Of a stretch of 64,000 nt of DNA, positions 10,832 to 64,000 are shown piece after piece. The stretch lies in the NCBI RefSeq assembly GCF_030646925.1, contig NZ_JAUSKL010000051.1, forward strand, positions 23,379-87,378, in the 5' to 3' direction. Within the stretch, counting starts at the first letter, position 1; each line of letters starts with the position of its first letter. The notes beneath the pieces are model-generated. The model did no database searches, had not been told where the DNA came from, and worked only from the letters and a program-made list of their open reading frames with translations. Source of the DNA: Candidatus Binatus sp. (lineage in GTDB: Bacteria; Desulfobacterota; Binatia; Binatales; Binataceae). Made by a program: the position numbers and the translations under genes.

Positions 10832-10975
10832 CGACGAGCTTCTTTTCAGGGCCGCACGACCTCGGGTCATTCAGCGGCATTCGAGCGCGCGACTCACGCT
10901 CGGCCCCGAGCATCACTATCACAAAAGAATTTTGATTCCTAAAGGAACCGTTGCGGGAAGGTTGCGGGATCGAAG

Positions 10976-58541: not shown

Positions 58542-60356
58542 CTAGCGCCCGGCCGCGATTTTCCGCTCGGACGGCGCGCCGTTCAGTTCCGCGAGGATCG
58601 CCTCGCGGCGCTCTTCGAGTTCCTTCGGCATCGTGCGTCCGATCCGTTTGAAAAATTCGCCCGCCGATTCGAGTTCCGCCTTCCACTCTTGGGGATTGAT
58701 CGCCAGCGCCGCGCGCGCCGCATCTTTGCTGATATCCAGTCCCTTGAGATCGAGCTCATCTTCGTTGGGAACTATACCGACCGGAGTTTCGCGGCCTTCG
58801 ACGCGATCGTGGATTCGATCGAGCATCCACTTCAGCACGCGCATGTTTTCGCCGTAGCCGGGCCACAGAAATTTTCCGTCGCTATCTTTGCGGAACCAGT
58901 TGACCATGAAGATGCGCGGCGGATTCCTGATCGCCGAGCGCATCTTGAGCCAGTGCGCGAAATAATCGCCCATGTTGTAGCCGCAGAACGGCAGCATCGC
59001 CATCGGATCGCGCCGCAGCACGCCGACGGCGCCCGCCGCTGCGGCGGTGGTTTCCGAGCCCATCGTCGCGCCCATCAGGACGCCGTGGGTCCAGTCGGTC
59101 GATTCGAGCACCAGCGGCACCGTCGAAGCGCGGCGCCCGCCGAAGATGATCGCCGAGATCGGCACGCCCTTCGGCTCGTCAGCTTGCGGCGACCACGCCG
59201 GATTGTTGCGCATCGGCGTCGTGAAGCGGCTGTTCGGATGCGCCGCCTTGTCGGTGGAATCCTTGTTCCGGGGCCGCCCCTGCCAATCGAGCAGGCCGTC
59301 GGGTGGCGGCACGTCCATCCCTTCCCACCAGACGTCGCCGTCGGGCGTCATCGCGACGTTGGTGAAAATCGAGTCGTGCTCGACCATCTTCATCGCGTTG
59401 AAATTCGATTTTGCGCTGGTGCCGGGCGCGACGCCGAAGTAGCCGTTCTCGGGATTGACCGCCCACAGTCCGCCGTCCTCGCCGACCCGCATCCACGCGA
59501 TATCGTCGCCGATCGTCGAGACCTTCCAGCCCTTGAATTCGTCGGGCGGCGTGAGCATCGCGAGATTGGTCTTTCCGCACGCGCTGGGGAACGCGGCGGC
59601 GATATAGGTGGTCTCGCCGTCGGGACTCTCGAGCCCGAGAATCAGCATGTGCTCTGCGAACCAGCCTTCATCGCGGCCGAGCGGGCCGGCGATTCGGAGC
59701 GCGAAGCATTTCTTCGAGAGCAGGGCGTTGCCGCCGTAGCCGCTGCCGACCGAGATGATCGTGTTGTCGTGCGGGAAGTGACAAATCAGCCGCCGCTCGG
59801 GACTAAGATCGAGCGTGCAATGCACGCCACGATTGAAGTGATCGGAATCGCCGAGCTGCTTCAGCGCCGCCGCGCCCATGCGCGTCATGATCCGCATGTT
59901 CAGCACCACGTAGATGCTGTCGGTGAGCTCGACGCCGACCTTCGAGAGCGGCGATCCGAGCGGACCCATCACGTACGGCACGACGTACAGCGTGCGCCCG
60001 CGCATCGAGCCCTTGAGCCATCCGTTGAGCCTGGCGTAAGTCTCGGCCGGGTCGCTCCAGTTGTTAGTCGGGCCGGCTTCCTCTTTGGTCGGCGTGCAGA
60101 CGAAAGTCAGTTGCTCGGTGCGTGCGACGTCGTTGGGATTCGATCGATGCAGATAGCAGCCCGGTTTTTTTTCGGGATTGAGCGGAATCAGGATTCCCGC
60201 CGTGACCGCATCCGCCGTGAGGCGATCTCGCTCGGCCTCCGAACCGTCGCACCATACGATCCGGTCGGGCGTGGTCAGGTTCGCGACCTCCGCGACGAAC
60301 TGGCTGAGTGCGGCGCTGGTAGTCGGTGATTTATCTGCCTCGGGATTCGGCGTCAC
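58542..60356 (-). CDS. pckG: Phosphoenolpyruvate carboxykinase (GTP)
   Basis: A 604-residue enzyme converting oxaloacetate and GTP to phosphoenolpyruvate, the entry step of gluconeogenesis. Family segments include VPYVMGPLGSPLSKVGVELTDSIYVVLNMRIMTRMG, HFPHDNTIISVGSGYGGNALLSKKCFALRI, the P-loop FPSACGKTNLAML with the active-site cysteine, STIGDDIAWM and NPENGYFGVAPGT. The closing lid and nucleotide-binding region (FGGRRASTVPLV, GATMGSETTAAAAG) are also present. The start is GTG 60356 preceded by GGAG. It is a single-gene unit; a TATAAT box lies about 123 bases upstream. Confidence 0.97.
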   Translation of the reverse strand: MTPNPEADKSPTTSAALSQFVAEVANLTTPDRIVWCDGSEAERDRLTADAVTAGILIPLNPEKKPGCYLHRSNPNDVARTEQLTFVCTPTKEEAGPTNNWSDPAETYARLNGWLKGSMRGRTLYVVPYVMGPLGSPLSKVGVELTDSIYVVLNMRIMTRMGAAALKQLGDSDHFNRGVHCTLDLSPERRLICHFPHDNTIISVGSGYGGNALLSKKCFALRIAGPLGRDEGWFAEHMLILGLESPDGETTYIAAAFPSACGKTNLAMLTPPDEFKGWKVSTIGDDIAWMRVGEDGGLWAVNPENGYFGVAPGTSAKSNFNAMKMVEHDSIFTNVAMTPDGDVWWEGMDVPPPDGLLDWQGRPRNKDSTDKAAHPNSRFTTPMRNNPAWSPQADEPKGVPISAIIFGGRRASTVPLVLESTDWTHGVLMGATMGSETTAAAAGAVGVLRRDPMAMLPFCGYNMGDYFAHWLKMRSAIRNPPRIFMVNWFRKDSDGKFLWPGYGENMRVLKWMLDRIHDRVEGRETPVGIVPNEDELDLKGLDISKDAARAALAINPQEWKAELESAGEFFKRIGRTMPKELEERREAILAELNGAPSERKIAAGR

Positions 60357-60484: not shown

Positions 60485-60524
60485 AGCGTCGCTCATCGCG
60501 TTGCGGTTCGCGCGAGAAATGAAA

Positions 60525-60546
60525 GGCGCCCGCCTGCGCGGACGCC
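60525..60546 (-). terminator. Rho-independent terminator of the ferritin-like operon
   Basis: Arms of nine bases (GGCGCCCGC and GCGGACGCC, one G-U type mismatch) enclose the loop CTGC. On the minus strand the hairpin is followed by TTTCATTTCT. It lies 29 bases after the stop codon of the last ferritin-like gene (60576). Confidence 0.7.
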
Positions 60547-60575
60547 TCCTGGAACATCGTAGATTCCGATCGCGG

Positions 60576-61346
60576 TCAGTACGCCGCGCTCTTGCGTGCC
60601 GAATCGATCAACCGCTGTATTTCTTCCTCGGTGAAGCCGGCCAGCATCCGCGCTTCTTTCGCGATCGTCAGCAGCATCCCGTCGTCGTTCTCGATATCTT
60701 CCTGCGCGCGGCGTCCACCGCGGAAATTGAACACCTGATCGACCATGTCCTGGAACGCCTGCGCGCGGGCAAGGCGTTCGGGGTCGCCCTCGGTCAGCTT
60801 GCGCATCCACTTCGAACCCATCCTCACGTGCGTGATTTCATCGGCCAGCACATAATCGACGGCGCGCTCGATCACTTCGTCGCCGTTGCGCTGCGCGATT
60901 CGAATCAACTGATCGAAGACGTCGCACGCGAGGCCCTCAAGCCCGCGATTGATTCCCGCGACGCGCGCGGCGGGATCCTCGGCCTGCGTGCATCGCCACA
61001 GAATTTCCGTCTCGACGTAGTCGCCCGGATGCGCGCCCATGTACTCGACCAGCCGCTGGAAAATTTCGGCGTGCCGCGCTTCGTCCCAGACCTGGCGCGC
61101 CATGTCGAGCTGGAATTCCCACGGCGCGTCGGGAAAATCGAACAGCGTGCGGCCCGCCGCTTCCATCGCCTGCAACTCGCCGGTGTAAATTCCGTGCAGG
61201 CGCGAGCGCAAAGTCTCCTCGTCGAACGGCGCCGGACGCCCGCCCTCCAGGCCCTGCTCCTCGCGAATCTCGCGCACTTGCCGGCTCCGCATCACGACCC
61301 AATTTTCGGGACGCGCGAGCCGATCGACCGGGATAAATTTTTCCAT
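60576..61346 (-). CDS. Ferritin-like diiron protein, last gene of the operon
   Basis: A 256-residue four-helix protein with a complete diiron ligand set in order E57 (GELQAME), E89xxH92 (DEARH), E137 (RGLEGLA) and E170xxH173 (DEITH). This E...ExxH...E...ExxH pattern is that of ferritin-like oxidases and oxygenases. The C-terminus contains EEEIQRLIDSARKSAAY. It is about 65% identical by eye with the neighbouring 266-residue protein, so the two arose by tandem duplication. No signal peptide. The specific reaction is unknown; candidates are oxidation of a lipid or aromatic, or iron/oxidative-stress handling. Confidence 0.82.
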   Translation of the reverse strand: MEKFIPVDRLARPENWVVMRSRQVREIREEQGLEGGRPAPFDEETLRSRLHGIYTGELQAMEAAGRTLFDFPDAPWEFQLDMARQVWDEARHAEIFQRLVEYMGAHPGDYVETEILWRCTQAEDPAARVAGINRGLEGLACDVFDQLIRIAQRNGDEVIERAVDYVLADEITHVRMGSKWMRKLTEGDPERLARAQAFQDMVDQVFNFRGGRRAQEDIENDDGMLLTIAKEARMLAGFTEEEIQRLIDSARKSAAY

Positions 61347-61370
61347 GATTCGATTTCCTTTGCGCCGCGC

Positions 61371-62171
61371 TCAGTAGGCCGTGCTTTTGCCGAAGCCGTG
61401 CACCAGCCGATCGATTTCTTCTTCCGTGAAGCCCGCGAGCAGCCGCGCCTCGCGCGCGATCGTGATCCCGCCGTCAATTTCGATTTCCCTGCCATCGACC
61501 ATCTGCTTGATATGCGGCGCATCCTCGACGGTCGTGCGTCCACCGTTGAAATTGAACAGCGCATCGATATTGTCCTGGAAGGCCTGTGCCCGCGCGAGCC
61601 GCTCGGGATCGCCCTCGGTCAGCTTGCGCATCCACTTCGAACCCATCCGCACGTGCGTGATTTCGTCAGCGAGCACGTAATCGACCGCTCGTTCGATAAC
61701 TTCGTCGCCTATGTTCTGCGCGAGCCTGATAAGCTGTTCGAACACGTCGCACGCGAGCCCCTCGAGGCCGCGATTTATTCCCGCAATCCGCGCCGCCGGA
61801 TCCTCGGCCTGCGTGCACGACCACAGCACCTCGCCCTCGGGAAATTCGCCGTAGTAGGAGCCGACGTACTCGAGCAACTTCAGGTAGATCTCGGCGTGGC
61901 GCGATTCGTCCCACACCTGGCGCGCCATGTCGAGCTGGAACTCCCACGGCGCGTCGGGAAAGTCGTAGAGCGTGCGGCCGGCCGCTTCCATCGCCTGGAA
62001 CTCACCGGCGCAGATTCCGTGTAGCCGCGCTTTCAGAAAATCTTCTTCGTATGGCATCGAGCTGTTGGGCGAAAGCCCCTGCTCGACGCGCGCATTACGC
62101 AAGCGCTCCGCCGGCAGCAGGATATGATCCGCAGGGCGGGCGAGCTTATCGACGGGAATCATTCGCTGCAT
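61371..62171 (-). CDS. Ferritin-like diiron protein, tandem paralogue
   Basis: A 266-residue paralogue of the downstream gene with all six candidate ligands at the same positions (E57, E89, H92, E137, E170, H173). The segments RGLEGLACDVF and YVLADEITHVRMGSKWMRKLTEGDPERLARAQAF are almost unchanged. The C-terminal third differs (VDGREIEIDGGITIAREARLLAGFTEEEIDRLVHGFGKSTAY) and has a 10-residue insertion. It lies 24 bases upstream of its copy and 18 bases downstream of the second NTF2-like gene. Both start with the same pattern (M-x-x-x-IPVD-x-LARP), which may be a shared docking tail. Confidence 0.82.
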   Translation of the reverse strand: MQRMIPVDKLARPADHILLPAERLRNARVEQGLSPNSSMPYEEDFLKARLHGICAGEFQAMEAAGRTLYDFPDAPWEFQLDMARQVWDESRHAEIYLKLLEYVGSYYGEFPEGEVLWSCTQAEDPAARIAGINRGLEGLACDVFEQLIRLAQNIGDEVIERAVDYVLADEITHVRMGSKWMRKLTEGDPERLARAQAFQDNIDALFNFNGGRTTVEDAPHIKQMVDGREIEIDGGITIAREARLLAGFTEEEIDRLVHGFGKSTAY

Positions 62172-62189
62172 GATGTGCTCCTCTGCGCT

Positions 62190-62576
62190 CTACCTGGTCC
62201 ATCCGGAACGGCGGCCGGTCAGGTTTGCGATTTCACGCACAGTCCAGTGTCCGTTCTCTTCGCCGAGCCGAAACTGAATCGTCGATGGCGCGCTAGCGCC
62301 GCCGCTCAATTGCACCTTGAAATAGTGATGCTTCGCGACGCGGGCCCGCGCAATCACTTCGAACTTATCATAGGCGCATGACCCGGTCGCGTCGAAGATT
62401 CGTGCGACGTCCGCGACTGCCTCGCGCGAGGTCATCGTTTCAGCCGCGGCGCGATCATGGTTCATGATCGCGCGGATCAGATTCTCCGCCGCGGCGAGCA
62501 TCGCAGGCGGCGGCTCGGCCACCCTGCCGATCGGCTGCGGACCCATCACGTTGCCGCGCTCGCCGAGATCAGGCAT
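62190..62576 (-). CDS. NTF2-like protein (second of two)
   Basis: A 128-residue soluble protein. The opening helix (AAENLIRAIMNHDRAAAETMTSREAVADVARIF) is followed by beta strands that end ENGHWTVREIANLTGRRSGW, consistent with a cystatin-like NTF2 cone. The ATG at 62576 (MPDLGERGN) is chosen as it overlaps the end of the upstream gene by 8 bases; the longer open frame has no family support. The last strand and its R-x-S-x-W ending recur in the neighbouring protein (RWLIVAVEDISNKRSSW), so the two are paralogous or form a heterodimer. Function unknown; such domains often act as small-ligand pockets. Confidence 0.6.
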   Translation of the reverse strand: MPDLGERGNVMGPQPIGRVAEPPPAMLAAAENLIRAIMNHDRAAAETMTSREAVADVARIFDATGSCAYDKFEVIARARVAKHHYFKVQLSGGASAPSTIQFRLGEENGHWTVREIANLTGRRSGWTR

Positions 62577-62967
62577 TGCCGTTCTCCGCCCGTACTTGCG
62601 CGGCCGCGGTCTTGAGATCGGGCACATCGCTCCACGACGAGCGCTTGTTCGAGATATCCTCGACCGCGACGATCAGCCATCTGCCATCGGGCTCGCGCCG
62701 CCATCGATACAAGAACTTGAGCGTGCGCGCGCCGGATTCAATTTTCAGCTTCGAGATGAAATGACCGCCGATCCGCGCGAGGCCGAGTGCTTCGACCGCG
62801 ATCGGATCTGGTAGTTTCGCGATCTCAGCCGCCGCCTGCCTGTATGCCTCAAGCGTGGACGCCGCGGCCGCCACGAATTTTTCGGCTACAGAAGTGTCGC
62901 GCCGTGCGATTGCCTCGCGAAACGCCGCTATCGCGCCGTGCAATTCCGGAAATCTTTCCTGCTCCAT
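62569..62967 (-). CDS. NTF2-like protein (first of two)
   Basis: A 132-residue protein with an N-terminal helical pair (HGAIAAFREAIARRDTSVAEKFVAAAASTLEAYRQAAAEIA) followed by a beta-sheet portion (LKFLYRWRREPDGRWLIVAVEDIS). It is similar in layout to the overlapping downstream gene. Membership of the NTF2/SnoaL-like fold is inferred from the length, the helical start and the final strand pair, not from a specific motif. Placed between a ferritin-like gene and its paralogue, it probably belongs to the same function. It starts at ATG 62967, 22 bases after the stop of the upstream ferritin-like gene. Confidence 0.6.
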   Translation of the reverse strand: MEQERFPELHGAIAAFREAIARRDTSVAEKFVAAAASTLEAYRQAAAEIAKLPDPIAVEALGLARIGGHFISKLKIESGARTLKFLYRWRREPDGRWLIVAVEDISNKRSSWSDVPDLKTAAAQVRAENGNA

Positions 62968-62989
62968 AATCTTGGCTCAACTGTCCCGA

Positions 62990-63610
62990 TTAACTGCGCC
63001 CCAGTTTTTTGCGCGGCTGTTCCGCCTCCGACTCGAAGCCGGTGACGCCGCCCGACGCGCCGAGCAGTTCCTCCAGATGCGCCTGCCACTTGGACGCGCG
63101 CGCATGCTTTTCCTTCGCGTCGAGCAAATCATCAAGCAGCACCAGTCCGCGCTCGACGTGGGCCTTTTCCTCATCGACCAGGCGCTCGAGGATTCTGAGC
63201 GTTGGCGGCTCGTACACCGGATTCATCGCGGACACATGCGAGCTGTAATGCGAAATCAGATGCGGCTTCAGGACGCGATAAATCCCGACCATGCGCTCGA
63301 TCGTGTCCTCCCATTCCTCCTTGTCCTCGATCGCGTTCATGAACGCGACGAACGCGTCGTTCGGCGGCTTCGATACCTGCGGCTGCGCGCGAAGTTCCGG
63401 CAGGCGCTTGCCCAGCGCGTCGGTATGGAGCGCGTCCTCGTACACCTGCTTCGCCATCTCGAGCTTGACCGCGAGTTCCGGCGTGAGCGCAATCCAGCCC
63501 GCCATCATGCGCATCATGCGTTCCTCGGCGTAGCGATAATTCTGAATATAGATGACGCTCTGGCGCACGCTGTAAACGCCGTCGAGAGTTCGTCTGTCGT
63601 ACAGTGCCAT
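62990..63610 (-). CDS. Third ferritin-like diiron protein
   Basis: A 206-residue four-helix protein, more distant from the two downstream. Helix 1 carries YAEERMMRMMAGW (E29/E30), helix 2 VYEDALHTDALGKRLPELR (DxxH or ExxxH around residues 58-62), and helix 4 VDEEKAHVERG (E148xxH151). The second glutamate helix is around EDKEEWEDTIERMVGIY. The layout resembles PaaA/PaaC-type or miaE-type ferritin-like oxygenase subunits. The C-terminus is basic (EQPRKKLGRS). It starts 3 bases after the TetR gene stop, so both are in one transcript. Confidence 0.72.
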   Translation of the reverse strand: MALYDRRTLDGVYSVRQSVIYIQNYRYAEERMMRMMAGWIALTPELAVKLEMAKQVYEDALHTDALGKRLPELRAQPQVSKPPNDAFVAFMNAIEDKEEWEDTIERMVGIYRVLKPHLISHYSSHVSAMNPVYEPPTLRILERLVDEEKAHVERGLVLLDDLLDAKEKHARASKWQAHLEELLGASGGVTGFESEAEQPRKKLGRS

Positions 63611-63613
63611 CGA

Positions 63614-64000
63614 CTAACTCCTTCCGTGAGGCCCGTTCGCGTTCGACGATCGAGTCAGCGCCGCGGCTTCGGAGAAGAATCTACCTTCGACGATCGCCGC
63701 GATTTCGCGCCAGTAGGTTTCCTTGTCAGTATGCTTCAGATTGTTCGCGCCCATCGCCCAGCCCGCGCACAGCATGTGAATCGCATGCACGGCGCTCCGC
63801 GTATCGTCGAACTGGATGACATGCATCGATTTTCCGCGCTCGATTATTTCAGCCACGACGCCAAGATAGTCGCTCGCAATCTTTTTCAGCGCATTACGAA
63901 ATTCGGGCCGGCGTTCGAGATAGCGCGCCTCGTGATGCAACACGTTGAAGGCCTCGCGATAGCGATCGATCACGTCGAGGATCGCGCGCATCACGTCGAT
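63614..64000 (-). CDS. TetR-family regulator, C-terminal part (cut by the window edge)
   Basis: The gene continues beyond the window; 128 codons plus the stop are present (the frame enters with I-D-V-M-R). The visible sequence (YREAFNVLHHEARYLERRPEFRNALKKIASDYLGVVAEIIERG ... DDTRSAVHAIHMLCAGWAMGANNL) is typical of the ligand-binding domain of TetR regulators that follow fatty-acid or xenobiotic CoA genes. The DNA-binding domain is outside. As the first gene of the ferritin-like operon it probably controls that operon. Confidence 0.78.
   Translation of the reverse strand: MDVMRAILDVIDRYREAFNVLHHEARYLERRPEFRNALKKIASDYLGVVAEIIERGKSMHVIQFDDTRSAVHAIHMLCAGWAMGANNLKHTDKETYWREIAAIVEGRFFSEAAALTRSSNANGPHGRS

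Follow-up and report, generated by a model that had tools for sequence, protein, structure and literature searches.

The window analysed here is a stretch of 64,000 nucleotides from Candidatus Binatus sp., and its far end carries six tightly spaced genes for a TetR-family regulator, a degenerate ferritin-like homologue (P0005), two NTF2-like proteins (P0004 and P0003) and two DUF455 proteins (P0002 and P0001). The six genes form a real and conserved operon, as confirmed by a survey of gene neighbourhoods. The explanation tentatively preferred, at a little below an even chance, is that of an accessory, self-regulated operon whose products would form a diiron oxygenase, probably heteromeric, acting on an acyl or lipid-like compound. 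The bolder proposal of a multi-subunit diiron oxygenase of a new class, in which two catalytic DUF455 proteins would act with a degenerate partner and NTF2-like accessories under a TetR sensing acyl-coenzyme A (acyl-CoA) and having one dedicated operator, is possible and rather doubtful. The original prediction had named a regulated diiron oxidation of a lipid, aromatic or hydrocarbon and an iron or oxygen stress system. Oxidation is the best supported of these; the FadR-like TetR and three loci in Acidimicrobiia (counted with no background control) speak for an acyl or lipid substrate, and the aromatic version and the iron or oxygen stress role are retained as rival explanations.

All six genes lie on the minus strand, separated by gaps of 3, 22, 18 and 24 bases, with P0003 and P0004 overlapping by 8 bases; the coordinates, strand and gaps given earlier from the sequence alone were all borne out. 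The distribution of the genes was analysed in 58 relatives, the window's genome included. Strong matches to P0002 (E ≤2.2e-134) were obtained in 16 genomes, all of the same family, Binataceae, and each with a tandem P0001 copy. P0005 was present in 15 of these 16, the exception being the GC-rich genome G025, where the last operon genes stand at a contig start and P0005 and the palindrome described below are unassembled. The six genes were complete in 13 of 18 Binataceae loci (window included); four further loci were truncated at contig ends, and in L041 P0004 did not reach the detection threshold. Gene presence was counted by tblastn because short genes in stretches of high GC were sometimes misplaced or overlooked by the open reading frame caller. 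Conservation over 18 loci rules out a chance arrangement, and gene content and order were kept, so that the homologues are not scattered. P0005 was found in only 17 of 41 family genomes and 7 of 17 genera (G025 being counted among the 24 without it), and the operon is therefore regarded as accessory.

The two DUF455 genes, P0002 (61371-62171, minus strand) and its tandem paralogue P0001 (60576-61346, minus strand), carry the argument for diiron chemistry. Their PF04305 scores of 109.9 and 96.3 bits were well above the Pfam gathering cut-off of 34.3, and the two proteins share about 70% identity. The predicted ligands of P0002 are E57, E89, H92, E137, E170 and H173, and P0001 has the same set. 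All six positions were retained without exception in the 36 aligned rows, which cover both paralogues (P0001 and P0002 included) and Acidimicrobiia. The rows were picked from the fetched loci (alignment A4, 36 rows; alignment A5, 34 rows); the DUF455 gene of L142, which is split over two frames, L050 and other partial copies stood outside A4. The claim of tandem duplicates with full E...ExxH...E...ExxH sets thus held, and each of the two proteins is a probable diiron enzyme. The P0002-type sequences formed one clade in the tree (support 97/100), by which P0001 and P0002 are two old paralogues, both retained. They are like other DUF455 members in PF04305 score and in the six ligands; the difference is that the subfamily is duplicated here, beside a degenerate homologue and downstream of its own TetR. 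No functional study of DUF455 is apparent from the titles and abstract openings of 15 papers naming it. If the preferred explanation is true, the family would become an oxygenase open to testing, its partner, regulator and operator being named; the bolder proposal would give it its first function.

The model of P0002 was a helical bundle with a predicted local distance difference test score (pLDDT) of 81.7. Its structural neighbours include the oxygenases ADO, R2lox, VlmB and MiaE, and PaaA and PaaC are among its Foldseek matches. ADO, the aldehyde-deformylating oxygenase (6jzu_B), was the top row for residues 39-260, with Z 15.8, a root-mean-square deviation (rmsd) of 3.2 and 189 aligned residues, others being tied with it within 1 Z; it differs in having only 16% identity, and the sequence match of P0001 to it was marginal (E 0.65-0.82). 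The DUF455 profile gave short matches only against solved structures. VlmB and ADO are biosynthetic enzymes, and their nearness, together with the patchy presence of the operon in the family, would suit biosynthetic tailoring, in which a lipid or a small natural product is modified and not catabolised. In the loci examined, the operon had no recognisable scaffold-building gene as a neighbour, and tailoring is considered quite improbable.

The third ferritin-like protein, P0005 (62990-63610, minus strand), was homologous to the DUF455 set (hhalign probability 86.7, E 4.4e-6), with a PF04305 score of 16.2 bits, under the 34.3 cut-off. The position aligned to E89 was D in five and C in three of eight Binataceae rows and H in all 20 close Acidimicrobiia rows; that aligned to E137 was K115 in Binataceae; and H151, aligned to H173, was present in 8/8 Binataceae and 0/20 close Acidimicrobiia rows. 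Since the ligand set is not kept, P0005 was not supported as a diiron enzyme and is more likely a partner subunit. Of the three diiron proteins first proposed, two are thus probable enzymes and the third is a degenerate homologue; its distant kinship stood, and its altered ligands extend beyond the second helix to which they had been assigned. An encapsulin cargo of the EncB type was also rejected (NF058679, 21.1 bits against a cut-off of 90), and the P0005 profile found no convincing relative among solved structures.

The two remaining structural genes are P0003 (62190-62576, minus strand), with the conserved start MPDLG...VMGPQP, and its paralogue P0004 (62569-62967, minus strand). The P0003 model (pLDDT 82.4) matched mostly NTF2-like entries in the PDB, with a best Foldseek E of 1.5e-4 and a best VIA Z of 10.9 (rmsd 3.2, 103 aligned), which indicates an NTF2 fold. 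P0004 was assigned through homology to P0003 alone, as seen by tblastn in the window (E about 4e-5) and by alignment. The two overlapping NTF2-like genes that had been proposed are in accordance with these results, and Pfam added nothing significant in a scan of 27 members of the two types.

The regulator gene (63614-64000, minus strand) supplies the C-terminal 128 residues of TetR and runs off at the window end, which is the exact end of contig C51. Contig C87 of the same genome overlaps this end by 283 bases in the right orientation, 270 of them identical (95%), and carries the TetR start (locus L175, ATG at 10840). The 5% difference suggests strain variants, and C51 and C87 presumably adjoin, which is supported by the same gene order in the closest relative, G003. 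The L175 copy scored 40.5 bits for TetR_N (cut-off 24) and 24.0 for TetR_C_24, below the cut-off of 26.4. Its closest solved structures by sequence were FadR_Bh (5gp9, E 2.6e-9) and FadR_Bs (3whb, E 2.9e-9), followed by YvdT (E 3e-8). Excerpts of PMC6449355 identify 3WHB as the FadR of B. subtilis and 5GP9 as that of B. halodurans, and describe regulation by the B. subtilis protein as dependent on acyl-CoA.

An operator had been expected upstream of the window end, and a candidate was found there. In 14 of the 16 loci examined, the region upstream of TetR contains the perfect 18-mer palindrome AATGAACGTTCATT. It occurs exactly once per genome in 14 of 41 Binataceae genomes, all within the 17 P0005 carriers, and in 0/24 non-carriers. 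The reversed palindrome, used as control, was absent from all 41 genomes, and the chance expectation is about 0.004 per genome at 60% GC. The palindrome is probably the TetR binding site, a candidate operator private to the operon. A wider regulon was rejected, as the window's genome has a single site within three mismatches of the 18-mer; the one genomic site sets the system apart from Bacillus FadR, the best solved relative of its TetR. The palindrome resembles TGAATGANTANTCATTCA, the B. subtilis FadR consensus; the literature searched gave no match for this string, nor for FadR together with TGAATGA. TTGACA precedes the palindrome in 11 of 14 cases. As the candidate operator is perfectly conserved and private, the inducer, and hence the substrate class, should be findable by a DNA-binding screen without culturing.

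These results would fit the following mechanism. TetR would sit on the single palindrome, a short way upstream of the tetR-type gene itself, and hold all six genes low, until a ligand, most likely an acyl-CoA or a similar acyl or lipid compound, releases it. Each DUF455 protein would hold a two-iron site and use oxygen to hydroxylate, desaturate or cleave the compound. P0005 may serve as a structural or substrate-gating partner, as PaaC does for PaaA, and the NTF2-like proteins may bind or rearrange the product. Precedent for a heteromer with a homologous structural subunit is given by PaaAC, in which, according to excerpts of PMC4498308, a catalytic subunit (ligands E42, E72, H75, D126, E155 and H158) and a homologous structural subunit act on a CoA ester. 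The operon, judged from sequence, shares with PaaABCE a probably catalytic ferritin-like protein with a homologous probable partner, and differs in that neither a bridging nor a reductase subunit is among its six genes; in Binataceae the operon also lacks a gene for an electron donor. Membership in PaaABCE was rejected, P0001 and P0002 scoring 15.4 bits for PF05138 (PaaA_PaaC) against a cut-off of 28.5. Precedent for acyl-chain oxidation is BioE, described in excerpts of PMC12915131 as a ferritin-like diiron oxygenase (E41, E68, H71, E140, E170, H173) acting on long-chain acyl-CoA and acyl-acyl carrier protein, with a MocR-family regulator, BioL. The likeness to BioE is by published description only, and the regulator here is a TetR in contrast to BioL. 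At listing level, the literature searches turned up no described pathway of this make-up, in line with the original prediction. Excerpts of PMC8262859 describe Binatota as alkane and fatty-acid degraders and do not mention the operon, and the text of that paper contains neither the word ferritin nor diiron.

The presence of PaaA and PaaC among the structural matches also bears on oxidation of an aromatic or xenobiotic compound, in which TetR would sense an aromatic and the DUF455 enzymes would hydroxylate it. G034 and G025 have a further DUF455 copy, the third, located next to genes for an HpaB hydroxylase and a BphC-like extradiol dioxygenase, which points in the same direction; it is counted in favour of the preferred explanation as well. 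Among the P0001-type rows this copy branches off separately (support 94/90), and it lies away from the operon, in which the Pfam scan recognised no ring-processing gene; the aromatic version is held to be unlikely.

The contexts of the genes in Acidimicrobiia were also examined. The P0005 homologue of locus L051 matched 85 of 296 genomes of the class, with 46 places at ≥46% identity; in a phylum-wide sample the P0005 profile matched 10 of 296 genomes, eight of which also belonged to the class sample. The flanks of 22 of the 46 close places and 19 of the 42 distant ones were retrieved, and a DUF455 neighbour was seen in 20 of these 41 loci (19/22 close, 1/19 distant). L051, L122 and L142 each carry, within 4 kb, a thiolase gene whose product has a PF22691 domain. 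L122 adds two acyl-CoA dehydrogenases, a MaoC/MFE-2 hydratase and an AMP-binding ligase, L142 a ChsH2-type protein and an aldehyde dehydrogenase, and L051 a ferredoxin-like gene directly upstream and a luciferase-like gene. If the bolder proposal is true, uncultured Binataceae and Acidimicrobiia would possess a hitherto unknown route for the oxidation of an acyl or side-chain compound.

Several observations weigh against this explanation. The catabolic setting was found in only 3 of the 20 Acidimicrobiia DUF455 loci, with no background control, and the other 17 have in its place a gene termed c9, with a sigma-factor gene close by in 15 of these loci. In E-value, FadR is ahead of the other TetR relatives by a factor of only about ten. 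Three P0005 carriers, G012, G026 and G035, have no palindrome (the contig of G026 ends inside TetR); the -10 hexamers match only two to four of six positions, and the promoter scan called no sigma-70-type promoter near the palindrome. The best Foldseek E of P0002 was 2.4e-3, none reaching 0.001. In the structure comparison, DPS-like (Z 15.6) and bacterioferritin (Z 15.4) chains scored like the oxygenases, R2lox (Z about 15) also being tied, and the fold therefore cannot decide the function of P0002. A search of plasmids gave two weak DUF455 matches, and in Sphingomonas a DUF455-like gene adjoins a peroxiredoxin gene, which favours a redox role. The ferritin-like chains and the peroxiredoxin neighbour would agree with iron storage, ferroxidase activity or peroxide defence by ferritin-like proteins. 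Such a role is at odds with a TetR having a private candidate operator, with the combination of two enzymes, a degenerate homologue and NTF2-like proteins, and with the three catabolic Acidimicrobiia loci; its probability is judged to be low.

A single terminator had been expected at the operon end. A hairpin of 12 pairs follows the last gene (60522-60549, minus strand), and it is a weak terminator candidate, with a poor T tract, a z of -1.81 and 10 of 200 shuffles folding equally well; the terminator scan did not call it. Anti-phage defence was rejected, PADLOC giving no match. On the other side, a divergent gene for an F420H2-dependent quinone reductase stands beside TetR in eight carriers, with an MFS gene in four of these. 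The two genes were excluded as system parts and reflect chromosomal synteny instead, because four genomes of the same genus that lack the operon (G001, G004, G005 and G006) still have them as neighbours of PEPCK. Of 14 genomes without P0005 that were searched for PEPCK, 12 had it, and 11 stretches were fetched; the remaining seven of the 11 had no reductase gene nearby. In the four genomes a 2-kb slot separates PEPCK from the reductase and MFS genes. The slot of G001 holds a malic enzyme gene (Pfam), the other three slots are 91-94% identical to it over ≥1.6 kb, and none of the four showed a remnant of the operon.

Some further observations were made beside these genes. The c9 gene (L139:10544-11155 and homologues), of about 190 residues and without a Pfam match, follows DUF455 in 17 of 20 loci, and several c9 loci contain a NadE, GlnE or EamA-type transporter gene, by names read by eye. 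Two tandem proteins of about 375 residues with an ADExPH motif (by eye) and no Pfam match lie near the DUF455 pair of L051 (13683-16140). The third, operon-free DUF455 copy (L068, G034:C90; L069, G025:C211) is accompanied, besides the HpaB-type and BphC-like genes, by two MacB/FtsX permease genes. C87 carries two genes, one of them DUF4145, between TetR and the reductase gene (L175:9636-10658), which are absent in G003. Within one genus, the slot beside PEPCK carries either the diiron operon or the malic enzyme gene (window 58542-60356; L199:9341-10990).

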